This document shows, piece after piece, positions 14,120-53,497 of a DNA stretch of 64,000 nt; the stretch's first letter is position 1; each line of letters begins with the position of its first letter. The stretch spans positions 124,001 through 188,000 of the forward strand of contig NZ_LGKP01000021.1 in the NCBI RefSeq assembly GCF_001306135.1. The letters run 5' to 3'. This stretch comes from Herpetosiphon geysericola (GTDB lineage: Bacteria; Chloroflexota; Chloroflexia; Chloroflexales; Herpetosiphonaceae). The notes below the pieces were generated by a model, which had not been told where the DNA came from, made no database searches, and worked only from the letters and a program-made list of their open reading frames with translations. The position numbers and the translations under genes are program-made.

Positions 14120-14458
14120 CTAGAATTGCGCTGCTTTGTGTTCATCGTCCGGCGGTGACCATGTGGTGGTGTGCACGAGAAACCTCGTGTCCTTGAGAAG
14201 ATCACCTTGGTCTCCCTCAAGAGTTAATCTTCCCGTCATACCTCGCTCGAGAATAGGCGCGCTCCGATTATACAGTTCAATCGCGATCACCACGAAAGAG
14301 CCATCGTCACCCATGGACGTTTCGTCGGGAAGGCGAATTTCTAGGCGATCCCCAATATAAATATCATTGATTGCTCGTCCAATTACATCCCAATAGTGTA
14401 AAAAATGAGGCTCAACGTCTAAGTCAAAACGGTATAAGTCAAAGGCTAACTCGTTCAT
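14120..14458 (-). CDS. Hypothetical protein
   Basis: A 112-residue acidic protein that I do not recognise. Its start ATG has GGGAG seven bases upstream. The sequence alternates predicted strands and charged turns, for example GDRLEIRLPDE and GSFVVIAIELYNR, without cysteines or a membrane segment. It is isolated between spacers of about 250 and 350 bases. The size, acidity and isolation resemble orphan immunity-type proteins, but this is a guess. Confidence 0.5.
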   Translation of the reverse strand: MNELAFDLYRFDLDVEPHFLHYWDVIGRAINDIYIGDRLEIRLPDETSMGDDGSFVVIAIELYNRSAPILERGMTGRLTLEGDQGDLLKDTRFLVHTTTWSPPDDEHKAAQF

Positions 14459-14695
14459 GGCATCTCCCTAGTCCTTGCTCAACCCATGATCGTAATTGTT
14501 CAAGAGTGAGTTGCAGTCGTCCATTGGTATACAGCAGGGATAGATATTACTATAGCATGCAGTATCCAGCTTGCCTATTGAGCGTTACGAGCCATGCTTG
14601 CTGTTTGGCAGATTGCCCAATCTTGTATACTTTCCACAATAATTTGGCCGTCAGCTTATGGCAATCTGACCATAGTTCATGGTTTTAAACCAGCC
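14459..14695. other. Spacer without a recognisable gene
   Basis: Together with the leader RNA this forms a gap of about 350 bases. The proximal part is AT-rich, holds none of the mosaic repeats and shows no plausible reading frame. The distal 100 bases are annotated separately as a structured leader. Confidence 0.4.
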
Positions 14696-14701
14696 TATAA
14701 T
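14696..14701 (+). promoter_or_regulatory. Probable -10 element ahead of the structured leader
   Basis: Perfect TATAAT; the predicted transcription start (about 14708-14710) coincides with the first base of the first leader hairpin. Confidence 0.5.
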
Positions 14702-14708
14702 CAATGGT

Positions 14709-14810
14709 ATAGACCAGAAGTGGTCTGGTGTGTCCGTGACTGGCGTGCGGCGGTGGGAGTCCCGGCCCTCCGCCCAGCCGAAAGCAGACACCACGAGGTA
14801 GCCAATTCCT
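14709..14810 (+). ncRNA. GC-rich structured 5' leader, riboswitch-like candidate
   Basis: Hairpin 1 is AGACCA (14711-14716)/TGGTCT (14721-14726) with a GAAG tetraloop. A long-range stem GGTGT (14727-14731)/ACACC (14788-14792) encloses CGTGACTGGCG (14735-14745), a stem GGCGG (14749-14753)/CCGCC (14770-14774) and GCCGAAAGC. The 3' arm ends two bases before the GAGGT ribosome-binding site (14795-14799). The leader is much richer in GC than the spacer upstream. CGTGACTGGCG resembles the 5' conserved segment of ZTP (pfl) riboswitches as I recall it, but their second conserved half is not clear. Class is unassigned. Confidence 0.5.
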
Positions 14811-15005
14811 ATGCAACAAGCACCAGAACCCGCAAAGCTCTTCGATTTACCGCCTCATGATGTTGGTTGGGAAGGAATTCTCTTTTTCAGTGCAGGCTAT
14901 ATCTTGGCAGCCTTGGTGCTGTTTATGATTTTGGGGGTTACACTAGCAAGCATTCTGCTGGTTGGCTGCCTGTTGGCGTTCTTGGGGATTAATTTCTGGC
15001 ACTAA
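14811..15005 (+). CDS. Small two-helix membrane protein
   Basis: A 64-residue protein with two predicted transmembrane segments (about 22-41 and 43-61) joined by a very short turn, after a soluble PAKLFDLPPHDVGWEG N-terminus. I recognise no family. It is preceded by a structured leader whose 3' stem arm lies next to its ribosome-binding site, and followed by a strong terminator, so it is a stand-alone transcription unit. The leader suggests its expression responds to a signal. A small transporter subunit or membrane regulator are both possible. Confidence 0.65.
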   Translation: MQQAPEPAKLFDLPPHDVGWEGILFFSAGYILAALVLFMILGVTLASILLVGCLLAFLGINFWH

Positions 15006-15017
15006 GGTTTAACGATT

Positions 15018-15052
15018 AAGCCGCTGGATCGCAAATGATCCAGCGGCTTTTT
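15018..15052 (+). terminator. Rho-independent terminator
   Basis: AAGCCGCTGGATC (15018-15030) and GATCCAGCGGCTT (15037-15049) form a perfect 13-bp stem with a 6-base loop and a T5 tail on the plus strand. It also lies just beyond the stop of the convergent minus-strand gene. Confidence 0.85.
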
Positions 15053-15055
15053 GGC

Positions 15056-17278
15056 TTATTTCGTAACTAATGGCAAATAGACCCGAAAACTTGGGGGAAC
15101 GGCAGTTACCGTGGTAGTTGCGGTAGCAGTGTTGGTTGGGCTAGTGGTGGCGGTGTTGGTTGGGCTGGTCGTGGCGGTATTAGTCGCAGTAATAGTGATG
15201 GTTGGCGTAGGCGTTGCGCACAAGGCTTGGGCACCATCGAGCTGGCCACGAACCTCGCCACCAGGGAAATTTTCAGTGTGGATGTTAATATAGGTTTGAC
15301 CAGCCAAAATATTGGCTTCTTGATTTTCAGCGTAGTTGATTGTGCCAACTTTGCTTGCCCCAAGCGGCAGATTAAACAACACCCCTGCGTTTGCTCCGCG
15401 TGGTGCAAAGCCGTGAATATGGGCCGCAGTTTCAGCGCTGCTCAAATCGTGATAGGTAATATTGTAGCTGAGTGTATTGGCAACGGTATTAATCTCAATC
15501 GTGCCCATCGCCATGCCTTTGCTGCCAGTTGGTGGCACTTCTTGCGAGCCATCGGCAATCACCGACATTGTGATACAACTTGGCGGTGGGGTGATAATTG
15601 GAGTTAAACTTGGCGTTGCAGTCCCAGTTTCGGTGGCGGTTGGCGTGATGCTGGGAGTGGCGGTTTCGGTTGGGGTGGCGGTTGGCGGCGGGCAAAGCGT
15701 AGCGCCATCAAGCTGGCCGCGAATTTCGCCCCCAGGGAAATCGCTAGTATGAATATTGATGTAGGTTTGGCCCGCTAAAATGCCAGCTTCTTGATTTTCG
15801 GCGTAGTTGAGTGTGCCAACTTTGGGCGAGCCAGTCGGCAGCGTGAATAATACGCCTGCATTGCTACCACGTGGCGCAAAGCCGTGAATGTGAGCAGCAG
15901 CTTCGGCGCTGCTTAAACCTTGGTAGCTAATGTTGTAGCGCAGGGTGTTGTTGACGGTATCAACATCAACCGTACCGCTACCAGTGCCCGTACTAGCAAT
16001 TGGCGGCACTTCCTGAGCACCATCAATGCTGACGTTAAAGCGCAAACAGCTTGGAATAGGCGTTGCCGATGGGGTGGCGGTTTCGCTTGGCGTTGTCGTA
16101 TCTGTTGGCGTTTCGCTTGGCGTAGCCGTATCCGTTGGCGTAGCGGTTTCGCTTGGCGTAGCTGTGTTGGTTGGGGTGGCGGTGGCTTGATTCGCCGCCG
16201 GAATGACCACAATGCCCCGCAAGGCAGTATTGGTTGCAGCAGTGACAATTGGTTGCAACGCCGCCGCATTAATTGGCTGATTGTAAGCAGCAGTATCGGT
16301 TAATTTGCTGATTGTGTTGCCACTACGGGTCAGATATAAATCAACGCCATTTGCGCCATTATCTTGGGCCGTAACATGAAATGCAGTGCTGGGAGTAGCC
16401 CAAACGCCTTGTAACACCCAGCTTGTGCCATTAAATGAAAATTTGCGCAGATTAGTCATATCGTCGGCCACATATAGCGTGTCAACGCCAGCCACACTTG
16501 GTTCGCGATCCAAAAAGACGAAGCCATAGGCCGAGGTTGAGCTGACAATTTGAGTAATGCTTTGACCGCTAGTGGTTGGCAAGCCTGTGCCAATTTGATA
16601 AACGCCTCGCGATGTTGCTGCCGATGATGAAAAATAGAGATTACCACCAAAGGTATGGACAACCCGGGTGTTGGTTGGAGTAATTAACGTCGTGGTCGTG
16701 CCAAGACCATTAAGGTAGCGCACGCCAGCAGTGCTACCAGTTCCGCTTGACCAAACGTTGCTCCCAGTGCCAGTCGCCCCGCGAATATTATTGCCACTGT
16801 AGGCATCATTTACAGTATTCGATAGGTCAAGAATGCCGCCTAAAGTAACCCGGCCCACCACTCGATTGACGGTTGCACTGGTGGTAGCAGCAACGCTGGC
16901 CGTGCCTGCATCGGCATCATAGCCCGCCAAAAGTAATGATTGACCATCGCCAGCAAGGCTGAGCGAGCCTTCCGAAGTTGCCGTACCAGCCATTGTAAGC
17001 CGCCGAGTATTGCCATTCAGGCTGCTTGGCAAGCCAATTGATTGAACCAACAAGCCGCTCGGTGTATATTCATCGAGAAAAACCGCTGCCGCAGCACTTG
17101 AAAGCGTGCTCGCCCCCGCGCCTACGCGCACGACGACGATATTGCCTGGAGTAAAGCCGCCACCGCCTTGAGTAGTACGTGGCGCAGCTTGGGCTAAATT
17201 CAGGCCAACAACCAAGCTAAACAGCGCAAGCAAGGTTATCAACGAGAACCTACGAGGTGTCCGAACATGATTCAGCAC
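15056..17278 (-). CDS. Large secreted protein with two CHRD domains
   Basis: A 740-residue exported protein. A signal peptide ends near AQAAPRTTQ, then a Gly/Ser/Thr-rich beta-propeller-like region (about 35-370), a TATPT/SETATP low-complexity linker, and two CHRD domains (about 420-530 and 575-690). Each CHRD domain contains AAHIHGFAPRG and FPGGEIRGQL-type motifs. More Thr-rich linker and the terminal SFRVYLPLVTK follow. CHRD domains occur in chordin and in bacterial surface proteins; their ligand is unknown. The start is GTG 17278 with AGGAGG seven bases upstream. It likely sits on the cell surface or in the sheath. Confidence 0.8.
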   Translation of the reverse strand: MLNHVRTPRRFSLITLLALFSLVVGLNLAQAAPRTTQGGGGFTPGNIVVVRVGAGASTLSSAAAAVFLDEYTPSGLLVQSIGLPSSLNGNTRRLTMAGTATSEGSLSLAGDGQSLLLAGYDADAGTASVAATTSATVNRVVGRVTLGGILDLSNTVNDAYSGNNIRGATGTGSNVWSSGTGSTAGVRYLNGLGTTTTLITPTNTRVVHTFGGNLYFSSSAATSRGVYQIGTGLPTTSGQSITQIVSSTSAYGFVFLDREPSVAGVDTLYVADDMTNLRKFSFNGTSWVLQGVWATPSTAFHVTAQDNGANGVDLYLTRSGNTISKLTDTAAYNQPINAAALQPIVTAATNTALRGIVVIPAANQATATPTNTATPSETATPTDTATPSETPTDTTTPSETATPSATPIPSCLRFNVSIDGAQEVPPIASTGTGSGTVDVDTVNNTLRYNISYQGLSSAEAAAHIHGFAPRGSNAGVLFTLPTGSPKVGTLNYAENQEAGILAGQTYINIHTSDFPGGEIRGQLDGATLCPPPTATPTETATPSITPTATETGTATPSLTPIITPPPSCITMSVIADGSQEVPPTGSKGMAMGTIEINTVANTLSYNITYHDLSSAETAAHIHGFAPRGANAGVLFNLPLGASKVGTINYAENQEANILAGQTYINIHTENFPGGEVRGQLDGAQALCATPTPTITITATNTATTSPTNTATTSPTNTATATTTVTAVPPSFRVYLPLVTK

Positions 17279-18409: not shown

Positions 18410-21295
18410 CTAGAGCCGTAGTGCCGCGAGCTTATCGCGGATCTCCTCAATCATAAATGGTTTTGCCAGAAATTGGGTTGTACCAGTAGTCCCAAATTGT
18501 TGGCTCACATGGTGCTCATTATAGCCGCTCATAATCACCACTCGCACTTCAGGCTGAATTTGCTTGAGCACGGCGAGGGTGCTTTGGCCATCAAGGTCGG
18601 GCATGGTCAGGTCGAGAAACACGCCAGCAATATGTTGATAATGCTCACGGAACAAGCTAATGCCCCGATTGCCACCTTCTGCAAGCAAGGTTTCGTAGCC
18701 CAAGCGCCGTAAAATGCGATCAATCACCATGCGCACATCTGGCTCATCGTCGATGACCAGAATTTTGCCTGGGGCTGAAACTGCCAGATTTGGCGCTTGG
18801 GGAATACCTTCGGTTTGCACATTTGCTGGCATAATTGGCAAATACATGCCGATCGTCGTGCCCTGTTGTGGCCGACTTTTGACCGCAATGCTGCCACGAT
18901 GGCCACGCACAACACCCAGCGTAACCGCCAAGCCAAGCCCGCGCCCAGTAAACTTGGTGGTAAAAAACGGGTCAAACATACGCGAGATCGTTGCGTGATC
19001 CATGCCCAAGCCATGATCGCTAATTTCAATCACGATATAGTTGGCGGGCACAAAGCTTCCGGTCGTGTAGGTATGGCCTTCGGGCGCGCCTTGCAGCTCG
19101 CGCACGCTGGTTGTAACCCGAATTGGGCCGCTGCTCGATGCTTCAAGGGCGTTAATTAACACATTGCTGATTGCTTGGCGCAAGTGTTGTTGATCGCCCT
19201 CAATTGCTGGAATATCGGGCGCTAGCTCGCTTTGAATTTGGCGTTGCTGGCTCAAGGCCGAGGGCAAGAGCCGAATTGAGGTTTGCACTACTTCGTTGAT
19301 CAACAAACTACGCCGCACATCAAGGTTTTGGCCAGTATAGGCGACCATCTGCTTGGTAATTTGGGCTGCGCGTTTGGCTGATAGCTCAATTTCGCTCAGT
19401 AATTGGCGCACATTAGCTTGCTCGGGCAATTCGAGCAAAGCCAAATGGGTATTGCCAAGAATCGACATAAACACATTGTTGAAGTCATGGGCAATGCCAC
19501 CTGCAAACACGCCCAAGCTCTCGATTTTTTGAGTTTCTGAGAAGTGCTGTTCAATTTCCAAGCGTTTTTGTTCTGCCTGCTTGCGCTCGCTAATATCGCG
19601 AATAATGACTTGGACTGAATTACGATGATCGAACACCATGGCCGAGGTTGAGCATTCGCCATAAATCAGCGTGCCATCGCGGCGCAAAAAGATCGTTTCA
19701 ATAAAATTGGTGGGTACGCTGCTGGCATGGCGAATCAGCACATTAAAATCAGCAAGATCGTGGGGGCGCAAGCCCTGTTGCACCGATTGGCCTAATAATT
19801 CGCTGCTGGTGGTTTGAGTCAGGGCCAAACCAGCCTGATTGGCATAGACGATCCGATCATCCTGCACCACAAAGAGCGGCAAGGGCAACATCTCGACAAT
19901 ATGCCGATATTCTTCCGAAATATCGATCAGCGTGCCGACCATGCGCAAGGGCTGACCACTGGCATCGCGCAGCACATGGCCACGGTCGCGCACAAAACGA
20001 TATTGCTGATTGTGATCGCGGAAACGATATTCTGCAGAAAAAATATCGCTACTGCCAGCAAAAAGATTGGCAGTCCGTTGCATAAACAACTCACGATCGT
20101 CTGGGTGAATATGCTCGTCCCACCACGTTGGGCTGCTGGCCACCTCGGCGCTGGTATAGCCAAACACCGTGGTAAAACTCCGATTCACCAGCGTGGTCTG
20201 CTGAATCATATCCCAATCGTAGATGCCGCCGTTGAGCACAGTTTGCGCCAACTCAAAGCGCTCGTTGAGCGAACGCAACTGCTGTTCGACCCGCCGACGT
20301 TCGGCCAATTCGGTTTGGGCTGCGGTGTTGAGCATATGCTTCTCCAGTGCAAGCGAGGCAAAGCGGGCAAATTGTTGCACCATTTCAAGCATGGTAATGC
20401 TAATCTGAATTTGGCTAGGATCGTAGATAATCACCAATGCGCCAGCGACGGTTTGTTCGCGTAATAATGGTAAGACCAACAAGCCATTACCAAAACCGGC
20501 TTGTGGATCGAAAAGGCGCTCTGGCCAAGCAGCATAATCATCGATAATTAATGGCTGGCCAGTTAAGCCAACAGTGCCAACTGCCCCTTGGCCCAATTCG
20601 ATTCGTGGAATCACATCTATGCCACCGCGCCCAACCACCGATTGCATGGCTTGGCCATCGTCGCTACGAATATAGAGCACGCCATATTCGCTGCCAACCA
20701 AATCGCTAGCCTTCCAAACAATAATTTCGAGCAAATCGTTGAGCGCAACTTGTTCGATCAGGGCTAAGGTAACATCGTGGAGCGAGCCAAGGTAGGCATT
20801 TTGGCGTTGCATTTGGCGAATCGTTTGCTTGTGGGCGGTTACATCGTGAATTAAACAACACAACACAGGCTGCTGTTGATAGTCGAAGGCAGTGATATAA
20901 ACTTCCACATCGCAGACCATTCCTGAGCGTAAGCGATGGCGAAAATCGTAGCGATTGCTGCCGCCAAGCTCTGCATTGCGAATTGCCGAGCGTTGTTCTT
21001 GGACAGGCTGGGCATTTAAATCGCTCAGCCTAAACGTGCAAAACTCCGCTTGACTATAGCCATAAAAACGGCAAGCGGCTGGATTGGCAGCTAAAATCTG
21101 CCATGTATGCGGCTCGATAATTAACTCGATGACTGGAGTTTGATTAAAAAACTCCAGTTTGCGCGTTTCGCTGGCAAGCAAGGCTTGTTGGGCGCTCGCA
21201 AGCTCAGCTTCTAAACGGGCGATAGTTTGGCTCATGTGGGTGAGCGTTGGCTGCTCGATGGCTGGTTGCCGGGACGTATTACTAAAACTATTCAT
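18410..21295 (-). CDS. Hybrid sensor histidine kinase with PAS, GAF and C-terminal receiver domains
   Basis: A 961-residue cytoplasmic sensor: PAS (about 45-165), GAF (about 190-340), PAS/PAC (about 365-480), PAS (about 490-595), HisKA with the phospho-acceptor in FAGGIAHDFNN, HATPase (QAISNVLINALEAS and EISDHGLGMD boxes), then a receiver domain (about 845-961). The receiver has VIDDEPD and a phospho-acceptor Asp in FLDLTMPDLDG. No transmembrane helix is visible, so the signal is probably cytosolic. The frame reaches upstream to 21349, but a TATAAT at 21338-21333 covers the intermediate ATG at 21334, so ATG 21295 is chosen. No separate response regulator is adjacent. Confidence 0.88.
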   Translation of the reverse strand: MNSFSNTSRQPAIEQPTLTHMSQTIARLEAELASAQQALLASETRKLEFFNQTPVIELIIEPHTWQILAANPAACRFYGYSQAEFCTFRLSDLNAQPVQEQRSAIRNAELGGSNRYDFRHRLRSGMVCDVEVYITAFDYQQQPVLCCLIHDVTAHKQTIRQMQRQNAYLGSLHDVTLALIEQVALNDLLEIIVWKASDLVGSEYGVLYIRSDDGQAMQSVVGRGGIDVIPRIELGQGAVGTVGLTGQPLIIDDYAAWPERLFDPQAGFGNGLLVLPLLREQTVAGALVIIYDPSQIQISITMLEMVQQFARFASLALEKHMLNTAAQTELAERRRVEQQLRSLNERFELAQTVLNGGIYDWDMIQQTTLVNRSFTTVFGYTSAEVASSPTWWDEHIHPDDRELFMQRTANLFAGSSDIFSAEYRFRDHNQQYRFVRDRGHVLRDASGQPLRMVGTLIDISEEYRHIVEMLPLPLFVVQDDRIVYANQAGLALTQTTSSELLGQSVQQGLRPHDLADFNVLIRHASSVPTNFIETIFLRRDGTLIYGECSTSAMVFDHRNSVQVIIRDISERKQAEQKRLEIEQHFSETQKIESLGVFAGGIAHDFNNVFMSILGNTHLALLELPEQANVRQLLSEIELSAKRAAQITKQMVAYTGQNLDVRRSLLINEVVQTSIRLLPSALSQQRQIQSELAPDIPAIEGDQQHLRQAISNVLINALEASSSGPIRVTTSVRELQGAPEGHTYTTGSFVPANYIVIEISDHGLGMDHATISRMFDPFFTTKFTGRGLGLAVTLGVVRGHRGSIAVKSRPQQGTTIGMYLPIMPANVQTEGIPQAPNLAVSAPGKILVIDDEPDVRMVIDRILRRLGYETLLAEGGNRGISLFREHYQHIAGVFLDLTMPDLDGQSTLAVLKQIQPEVRVVIMSGYNEHHVSQQFGTTGTTQFLAKPFMIEEIRDKLAALRL

Positions 21296-21332
21296 AAACT
21301 CGGCCAGTGTGGAAAAAAGCCATAATAGGTTC

Positions 21333-21338
21333 ATTATA
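21333..21338 (-). promoter_or_regulatory. Probable -10 element of the hybrid histidine kinase gene
   Basis: TATAAT on the minus strand, fused to the ATG at 21334; it decides against that ATG as translation start. It is divergent from the dprA -10 some 70 bases away. Confidence 0.5.
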
Positions 21339-21406
21339 CCGTGAAGCAAGTTGCTTTTGAAAGTGCCCGCAATTCCTATTTGCTTTTGCTACCAATCGGA
21401 CTGATG

Positions 21407-21412
21407 TATAAT
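21407..21412 (+). promoter_or_regulatory. Probable -10 element for dprA
   Basis: TATAAT 31 bases before the dprA ATG, with TTGCTA (21386-21391) at a short 15-base spacing as a possible -35. Confidence 0.5.
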
Positions 21413-21442
21413 TAAAGCGTTACACATGCGTGGGAGTTTGCA

Positions 21443-22552
21443 ATGGATGAACGTCATGCCTACATTGCCTTTAATCTCACTCCTGGTATAGGACCACAAC
21501 GGCTTCAAGCGCTGATCAAGCACTGTGGCTCGGCTGCTGCAGCGTGGTCGGCCAGCCTCGACGATTGGCGGGCAGCAGGCTTGGATCGGCGCACAATCCA
21601 AGCGTTGCAGCATGCACAGCAGCATCTAGACCTTGAGGCCGAGCTTCGTACCATCGCCGAGCAAGGCATCACGGTCGTGATGCAGAACGATCCTGAATTT
21701 CCCACAATGTTGCAAACGATCGATCCGGTGCCACCATTGCTGTATATGCGTGGCTCGTTGATTGAAACTGATCGCTGGGCGGTGGCAATTGTTGGCACCC
21801 GCAACCCCACCCCCTATGGGCGTGAGGTCACCTATAAGTTTGCTGGCGAGTTAGCTCGCGCAGGTCTAACGGTGGTTTCAGGCTTGGCCCTCGGCATTGA
21901 TGCCATGGCACATCGGACAGCCTTGGAGAATAATGGGCGAACGTTGGCAGTGCTTGGCAGCGGCTTGCAACAGATTTACCCAGCCCAACATCGCCAATTG
22001 GCCAACGATGTCAGCCAACAGGGAGCCTTGCTTTCGGAATATGCGCCCACGACTGAGCCGCTGAGTGGCAACTTTCCGGCGCGCAATCGCTTAATTAGCG
22101 GGCTAAGCTTGGCAACGATTGTGGTCGAGGCTGGCGAACGCAGCGGCGCATTAATTACTGCGCGGTTTGCGCTCGACCAAGGCCGTGATGTGTTTGCGGT
22201 GCCTGGCTCGATTTTGAGCCATAGTAGCGATGGCCCGAATCAATTAATTGTCGATGGCGCAACACCCTTGCGCAGCATCAACCAAGTGCTTGAGCAACTC
22301 AATCTGCATCAAGCCCAAGCCCAACAAACGGTCAGCAGCATTGTGCCAGAAACACCAGCCGAGGCCTTGCTCTTGCCCTATTTGAGTGGTCAGCCAACCC
22401 ACATCGACGATTTAGGGCGGGCCTGTGGTTTGGCCGCCCATGATCTTTCGGCGACCTTGGGCCTGATGGAACTCAAAGGTATGGTGCGCCATGTTGGTGG
22501 GATGCACTATGTGCTGGCGCGGGAAAAGCCCGCATCCTATGATCTTTCTTAA
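21443..22552 (+). CDS. dprA: DNA-processing protein DprA
   Basis: A 369-residue DprA/Smf protein that binds incoming single-stranded DNA and loads RecA during natural transformation. The Rossmann-like core has VAIVGTRNPTPYG, GLTVVSGLALGIDAMAH, GSGLQQIYP, FPARNRLISGLS and VEAGERSGALIT in canonical order. An N-terminal helix-hairpin-helix-like region (ITLTPGIGPQ-type) and a C-terminal winged-helix segment (about 300-365) complete the usual three-part architecture. GGGAG precedes ATG 21443. It is followed within 20 bases by a Fur-family gene on the same strand. Confidence 0.95.
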   Translation: MDERHAYIAFNLTPGIGPQRLQALIKHCGSAAAAWSASLDDWRAAGLDRRTIQALQHAQQHLDLEAELRTIAEQGITVVMQNDPEFPTMLQTIDPVPPLLYMRGSLIETDRWAVAIVGTRNPTPYGREVTYKFAGELARAGLTVVSGLALGIDAMAHRTALENNGRTLAVLGSGLQQIYPAQHRQLANDVSQQGALLSEYAPTTEPLSGNFPARNRLISGLSLATIVVEAGERSGALITARFALDQGRDVFAVPGSILSHSSDGPNQLIVDGATPLRSINQVLEQLNLHQAQAQQTVSSIVPETPAEALLLPYLSGQPTHIDDLGRACGLAAHDLSATLGLMELKGMVRHVGGMHYVLAREKPASYDLS

Positions 22553-52939: not shown

Positions 52940-53497
52940 ATGACCAATGCTGCGTACACACGCCTAAAGCCGCAGATCATCACCGGTCGCCGGATTCTGC
53001 TGACGGCTTTTGTCACCCCGAATGATGATTATTTCGAGCCGCCCGATGGCTGGATCGATCCGATCGAAGTTGCGCTTTATGGCAATAGTTTTGGCTGCAA
53101 TTTGGCAACGCCCAATGGCAACAAACGCTATATCGATTCATACAACCGCGATGAGGTATTGTGGACGACCAATAGCTTAATGCAAAATTGCCAACTGCGG
53201 CCAGATTGGGGCTACTCGAATAACTCAACCCTTGATCTGAATCGGCTTTCGCGTTTTGTTAGCCGCTTTACCAAGGCGTGCGTTGCGATTTATCGCCATA
53301 ACCACCCGCCAGTCACGGTTGGGATGGCAATTATTCCTGCTCAAGGCTTGCAATTGCTCGACCCCCAGACCAATTCGCCATTTGGGCCGTTGGTTACCCA
53401 AGCGCGGGTCGTGGCCCAAACAGCGCTTGAGGCAGGAGCCGACGAACGTTTACTGCAAACGATTCGCGATGGTTTATTATCTCTTGCAGGCAGCTAA
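52940..53497 (+). CDS. Conserved-looking hypothetical protein
   Basis: A 185-residue cytoplasmic protein that I do not recognise. It has short conserved-looking stretches such as GRRILLTAFVTP, DGWIDPIEVALYG and RDEVLWTTNSLMQ, with mixed alpha/beta composition and three cysteines. The frame opens at 52694, but bases 52690-52754 are a dispersed repeat, so ATG 52940 is preferred. It ends 43 bases before the mutase large subunit and could be cotranscribed with it. Confidence 0.55.
   Translation: MTNAAYTRLKPQIITGRRILLTAFVTPNDDYFEPPDGWIDPIEVALYGNSFGCNLATPNGNKRYIDSYNRDEVLWTTNSLMQNCQLRPDWGYSNNSTLDLNRLSRFVSRFTKACVAIYRHNHPPVTVGMAIIPAQGLQLLDPQTNSPFGPLVTQARVVAQTALEAGADERLLQTIRDGLLSLAGS

Follow-up and report, generated by a model that had tools for sequence, protein, structure and literature searches.

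An invariant, predicted structured leader RNA precedes the gene for a 64-aa membrane protein in the genus Herpetosiphon

In the window analysed in the current work (the whole 64,000-nucleotide stretch of Herpetosiphon geysericola DNA, to which all coordinates refer), a single-gene unit is predicted on the plus strand. It comprises a TATAAT -10 element (14696-14701), a leader (14709-14810), a gene (14811-15005, stop codon counted) specifying a small membrane protein of 64 aa, and an intrinsic terminator-like site (15018-15049) predicted to consist of a 14-bp stem and a T-run. The TATAAT sequence is invariant in all six species compared and lacks a recognisable -35; it was not reported by a consensus promoter scan, which demands a -35. 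Based on the spacing from TATAAT, transcription is estimated to start at approximately 14708-14709, so that of the original prediction, which had placed the start at the first base of a hairpin commencing at 14711, the TATAAT stands while the start is moved about two bases upstream. A Shine-Dalgarno sequence, GAGGT (14795-14799), is located near the 3' end of the leader, the end of GAGG being 12 nt from the ATG. The sharp increase in G+C content described for this region was also observed, with a value of 0.63 for 14700-14799 versus 0.41 and 0.47 for the flanking 100-base windows; it is not restricted to this segment, as had been stated, a value of 0.60 being found at 15150-15249.

The unit was compared among six Herpetosiphon genomes, i.e. 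the genome to which the window belongs (G000) and five others (G001 to G005), the set including contigs of Herpetosiphon giganteus, Herpetosiphon llansteffanensis and Herpetosiphon aurantiacus. One copy of the unit is present in each of the six genomes, and the start of the first terminator arm (GCCGCTGG), being the part of the terminator that this comparison covered, is alignable in all of them. The sequence upstream of 14596 cannot be aligned between two groups of species, yet the unit is retained. In all six species the -10 element, the leader, the gene and the first part of the terminator stem remain together. Adjoining the unit, a 112-aa ORF on the minus strand (14120-14458) gave no match in Pfam or NCBIfam, nor a tblastn match at 1e-8 in the 16-kb stretches of the five relatives.

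Immediately upstream of the -10 element, a conserved block (14596-14695, plus strand) contains two invariant runs (14618-14639 and 14653-14677). Across 14596-14702, 88 of 107 positions are invariant in the six species, versus 4 of 86 at 14510-14595. Inspection by eye revealed two inverted repeats in this block, TATGG-N7-CCATA and TGGTTTTAAACCA, the second of which is disrupted in G001, G002 and G004. A perfect 9-nt inverted repeat (CAGATTGCC at 14609-14617 and GGCAATCTG at 14660-14668) is also found within the block, and is imperfect in G001, G002, G004 and G005. When TTATGGCAATCTGACCATA was searched as a possible operator with up to three mismatches in its own genome, three sites were retrieved, being the sequence itself and two sites with three mismatches, and no regulon was deduced from them. 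A conserved block positioned 5' of a -10 element that has no -35 suggests the involvement of an activator, and the block may contain activator or operator sites.

The leader is located upstream of the orthologous small gene in all six genomes, once in each, an arrangement whose absence had been put forward as grounds for abandoning the prediction. It contains an invariant core (14709-14775, plus strand) of 67 consecutive columns that are identical in the six species, representing the longest invariant run in the 7.3 kb common to all six, of which a share of 0.68 is invariant and in which the two species groups are approximately 80% identical to each other. Following 2000 permutations of the variable sites, the longest invariant run in these 7.3 kb did not exceed 41 nt. 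Just 5' of the core, two of the seven positions of 14703-14709 are invariant, 14709 itself being one of the two, and the adjacent gene varies among the six species at 33 of its 64 third codon positions. The same 7.3 kb contain further invariant runs of 63 nt, inside a coding region, and of 60 nt, at the start of another gene, and invariance alone is therefore no proof of an RNA element: such runs are rare without being unique, and the distinctive feature of the present one is that it is noncoding and begins at the predicted transcription start. For the genus's true ZTP aptamer, taken as a benchmark, 82 of 86 columns are invariant, and for the RNase P region 380 of 497, a count that takes in unaligned ends. 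The constraint on the leader core is comparable to that on a real riboswitch of the same genus, and the leader is constrained at the nucleotide level from the predicted transcription start onward. As regards the RNase P RNA, the Herpetosiphon sequence (L054:1501-1603) and its five counterparts scored 51-54 bits with RF00010, under the gathering score of 100.

The 63-nt run corresponds to 20330-20392, lies within a 979-aa ORF (18410-21349) which by eye is histidine-kinase-like, and leaves 21 of 21 codons unchanged in the six species. At 21365-21498, the region 5' of the gene at 21443 and the first codons of this gene are nearly invariant in the six species, making it another candidate for a constrained leader. 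This second instance of a nearly invariant gene start would fit an explanation by which the sequence at 14709-14810 is an ordinary, unregulated 5' UTR, composed of a conserved promoter followed by generic stabilising hairpins. A generic stabiliser should, however, tolerate compensatory changes in its stems, and none is present in 67 nt at a between-group identity of about 80%, for which reason we regard this explanation as unlikely.

A different cause of the invariance would be an overlapping small reading frame, with the leader encoding part of a protein or a leader peptide. In G000, 14594-14860 forms an open frame in which a base change at 14776 (CCA/CCT) is synonymous, but in G001, G002 and G004 this frame is interrupted 5' of the core by a TGA (CCGTCA of G000 being replaced by CCATGA), the 5-nt length difference that sets G000 and G003 apart shifts the frame, and none of the third positions in 14709-14775 is variable as compared to 33 of 64 in the real gene. 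The stop codon in three species, the frame shift and the invariant third positions together make a coding cause highly improbable.

Folding of 14701-14815 (115 nt) yielded a free energy of -46.8 kcal/mol (z -2.53), which was equalled by 4 of 200 shuffled sequences, while the opposite strand of the same segment produced a z of -0.82, equalled by 44 of 200. Among the leaders folded, representing five of the six, z ranged from -2.51 to -3.00. The central observation of the original prediction, namely a structured leader directly 5' of the gene for a tiny membrane protein, is upheld. At the 5' end, the perfect 6-bp hairpin with a GAAG loop that had been described (AGACCA-GAAG-TGGTCT, 14711-14726, plus strand) is present and is predicted to form when the transcript starts at 14709, the probability of its second pair (G-C) being 0.96-1.0 in the six species. 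In the minimum free energy structure of 14701-14815 in G000, which carries eight extra 5' bases, this hairpin is open and its bases are paired with the start of the gene. An inner hairpin (14741-14780, plus strand) appears in the predicted folds as GGCGG.GGG paired with CCC.CCGCC and extended by UGGC/GCCG, its eight core pairs having probabilities of 0.95-0.99 in the six species; base 14776, which is a T in G001, G002 and G004 and an A in the others, is paired in either case, with a shifted register.

The inner hairpin is enclosed by an outer stem, the 5' arm of which (GGTGTGTCC, 14727-14735, plus strand) pairs with a 3' arm (14782-14794, plus strand) that varies with the species, being 5 nt longer in G001, G002, G004 and G005 than in G000 and G003. 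The partner of GGTGTGTC within this stem is GACAC in G000 and G003, and GAC.CACC in the four others, and in the predicted folds of the six species all of these differing 3' arms are able to pair with the unchanged 5' arm. When the 3' arms of five leaders were compared with 2000 shuffles each, 209, 183, 272, 362 and 220 shuffles were found to fold equally well, the corresponding numbers in a test of the bare duplex being 598, 23, 187, 166 and 121; the 3' arm of G005, if reversed, folds equal to the real arm. The outer stem is thus moderately better than shuffled sequences, at a level that is not decisive. The fact that its 5' arm never changes suggests that this strand may do more than pair. 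RNAalifold detected two-sided changes in none of 30 pairs, 24 of which are unchanged in all six species. A lack of covariation had been named as a result that would count against the prediction, and literally it is what was obtained, because the sequence hardly varies; the structure is therefore a predicted and not a proven one. We consider the leader likely to adopt the modelled structure.

Through its 3' arm, the outer stem adjoins the ribosome-binding site as originally described, with a gap that is not two bases throughout but ranges from zero to three, depending on the species and on alternative pairing. The Shine-Dalgarno sequence itself is predicted to be mostly paired to the early coding sequence in four of the six species and partly so in G001 and G004; as this pairing is uneven and its partners differ, little weight is given to it.

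The leader had originally been considered as either a variant ZTP element or a new class, the former on account of a segment, GTGACTGGCG (14736-14745, plus strand), resembling the 5' block of the ZTP consensus. The segment is an exact match to a block of the true ZTP aptamer of the genus, and it occurred in none of 5000 shuffles of the leader. Within a longer comparison, TCCGTGACTGGCG of the leader has its match in TCGGTGACTGGCG of this aptamer, and a second segment, ACCACGAGGTAGCCAATT, which is found in G000 and G005 and is collinear with the first, matches ACCACGGGGGAGCCGATT of this aptamer at 15 of 18 positions. The summed score of the two segments, evaluated against 400 shuffles for four of the six leaders, was reached by none for G000 and G005 and by 3 for G001, where the second segment is weaker, but by 21 for G004, from which it is missing. 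Two other parts of the aptamer are not recovered: for the 3' P3 element CGCCTGGGC the best site in the leader has three mismatches and 0.93 of shuffles are as good or better, while for GGGGGAGCCGA, comprising the GGGGAGC junction and the 3' arm of P1, the best site likewise has three mismatches and is matched by 0.31 of shuffles. Inspection moreover placed the CCGCC part inside the outer stem and revealed no P1 partner for the 3' block, and the ZTP class was picked post hoc among many riboswitch classes. A second copy of GTGACTGGCG is located in the window at 53307-53316 on the minus strand, 0.10 copies being expected by chance.

In searches with covariance models, the leader was absent from the matches of RF01750 (gathering cut-off 39 bits) at E<=10, both for 14640-14860 (221 nt) and genome-wide, where 150 of some 340-440 first-look candidates were scored per genome. 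The same model, with which a positive control was run as well, retrieved genuine ZTP elements elsewhere in all six genomes at 55.5-56 bits. A ZTP model built from the genus, run with filters off, returned 38 matches down to 5.6 bits with none of the six leaders among them, and assigned 128.2 bits to two true ZTP loci. Having been missed by the ZTP models, the leader is therefore not filed as ZTP; membership of this family was rejected on the combined basis of Rfam, the genus covariance model and the motif tests. A variant or degenerate ZTP (pfl) riboswitch is accordingly given very little credence, and a remote origin from a broken ZTP element is unlikely. This case cautions that sharing 10 nt exactly with a block of a riboswitch can be misleading. 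The genuine ZTP element of G000 (contig C39, 184044-184129) is followed by an ORF of 492 codons or more which runs off the fetched stretch and which we take to be purH-like. Compared with the ZMP-ZTP riboswitch (RF01750), the leader is alike in possessing GTGACTGGCG, in being situated soon after a TATAAT and in its comparable conservation in the genus; it is unlike it in lacking the CGCCTGGGC element, in preceding a gene that is neither a purine nor a folate gene, and in that a true ZTP element sits elsewhere in the same genome.

A search of Rfam had been suggested as a check, and it placed the leader in no family: the whole window gave no gathering-score match for it, and at E<=10 the leaders of G000 (14640-14860) and G004 produced solely weak matches far below gathering. 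The top chance match, the dauA motif (RF04311; 15.3 bits, E 4.8), has a nested stem of similar size but lies far under its gathering score of 45 and was not listed for the G004 leader. When 158 genomes of the class were searched by blastn, with at most five candidates scored per genome, 119 had a match at E<=1, E-values below 1e-30 being confined to the six Herpetosiphon genomes; the next best among the matches listed had E-values of 0.001 and 0.002 over 28-35 nt. With a covariance model of the leader (R1), 301 genomes of the phylum were searched at E<=0.1 under strict filters and with 13 candidates scored per genome, settings at which weak relatives could be missed. Ten genomes responded, namely the six Herpetosiphon genomes (99-123 bits) and four others (23-30 bits), the latter matches having E-values of 0.004-0.1 per genome and being taken as chance because 301 genomes were searched. 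In 12 genomes of the family and order, searched with looser filters and 150 scored candidates per genome, a single match with an E-value of 0.63 was obtained, and in the genomes of three other genera of the family (G006, G007 and G008, two of which are ~75% complete) no leader was found at E<=1. Plasmids and phages yielded no match to the leader, and a 22-nt pattern searched in viral contigs had no exact counterpart there. In one literature collection, the titles and opening lines of abstracts concerning Herpetosiphon riboswitches and noncoding RNAs do not treat the leader. In these searches the leader was found solely in Herpetosiphon, with no credible relative outside the genus.

The 64-aa protein is 84-98% identical in the five other species and is matched by no family of Pfam or NCBIfam at E<=1; its best match among PDB sequences had an E-value of 0.84, and structure prediction returned one long helix spanning residues 19-63 (pLDDT 81.5, pTM 0.46). 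It follows the distribution of the leader in a profile search, which identified it in 6 of 158 class genomes, and a scan of contigs with the protein retrieved three Herpetosiphon records. A single-sequence search identified 7 of 60 relatives, the seventh being G039; this match (E 5.7e-4, 33% identical) spans a stop codon and is not listed by the profile at E<=0.01 among the 158 class genomes, and was dismissed. Side matches of the profile in three genomes of the genus (E 0.005-0.006) fall inside a multi-span protein of 368 aa and appear to be due to chance.

A small hydrophobic helix, a Shine-Dalgarno sequence predicted to be mostly paired in four species (partly in G001 and G004) and a conserved upstream block are features that could also be expected of a type I toxin-antitoxin-like locus, in which a structured leader inhibits translation of a hydrophobic small protein and an antisense RNA is produced. 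Such a locus is very unlikely here, since each genome has a single match and the protein is strongly conserved. In three species, the -10 of a promoter-like site on the minus strand (14664-14636) no longer contains its A, as judged by a scan that promoters of another type would escape. Between the upstream block and the leader no complementarity of at least 8 nt was listed, the sole complementarity listed connecting 14595-14603 with the gene start over 9 nt (89%).

A leader that remains almost unchanged in six species probably controls the message of the small gene. We therefore favour, with a probability of roughly 0.6, the interpretation that it is a genus-specific, cis-acting 5' leader of a single-gene mRNA which controls translation or stability of the message for the 64-aa membrane protein; a functional leader RNA at this position, as originally predicted, is supported by its nearly invariant presence in six of six genomes. 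According to this model the 5'-terminal hairpin would protect the RNA end, and the inner hairpin together with the outer stem would provide a platform, the base of which abuts the Shine-Dalgarno sequence. Opening and closing of this platform would set ribosome initiation on the small gene, or else the lifetime of the message; alternatively, this could be done by a protein or ligand binding to the 5' strand, which is invariant. The inner hairpin is not followed by a U-run, an absence that favours control at the level of translation or stability over attenuation of transcription. With protein-binding leaders and translational riboswitches in general, the leader shares a 5' hairpin and a closing stem that adjoins the Shine-Dalgarno sequence, but it differs in that the latter is outside the conserved stem.

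A special case of such a cis-acting leader would be a new ligand-sensing riboswitch class confined to Herpetosiphon. A degree of invariance near that seen in a true riboswitch, folding z of -2.51 to -3.00, a stem base adjoining the Shine-Dalgarno sequence and the lack of an Rfam match would all accord with it, but the leader occurs as a single copy in a single gene context, with no second context hinting at a ligand, and none of its 30 pairs covaries. Known riboswitch classes are, moreover, usually more widespread than one genus, and we judge this special case to be quite improbable. The leader is a candidate for a new regulatory RNA; a tentative and rather doubtful reading is that of a regulatory RNA class new to science, confined to Herpetosiphon, whose 67-nt core would sense a ligand or a protein and switch translation of the small protein. 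If the cis-acting leader works as proposed, Herpetosiphon would possess an orphan regulatory leader outside Rfam with a conservation near that of a riboswitch, paired with a tiny membrane protein outside Pfam and NCBIfam, and thereby a compact and testable system.
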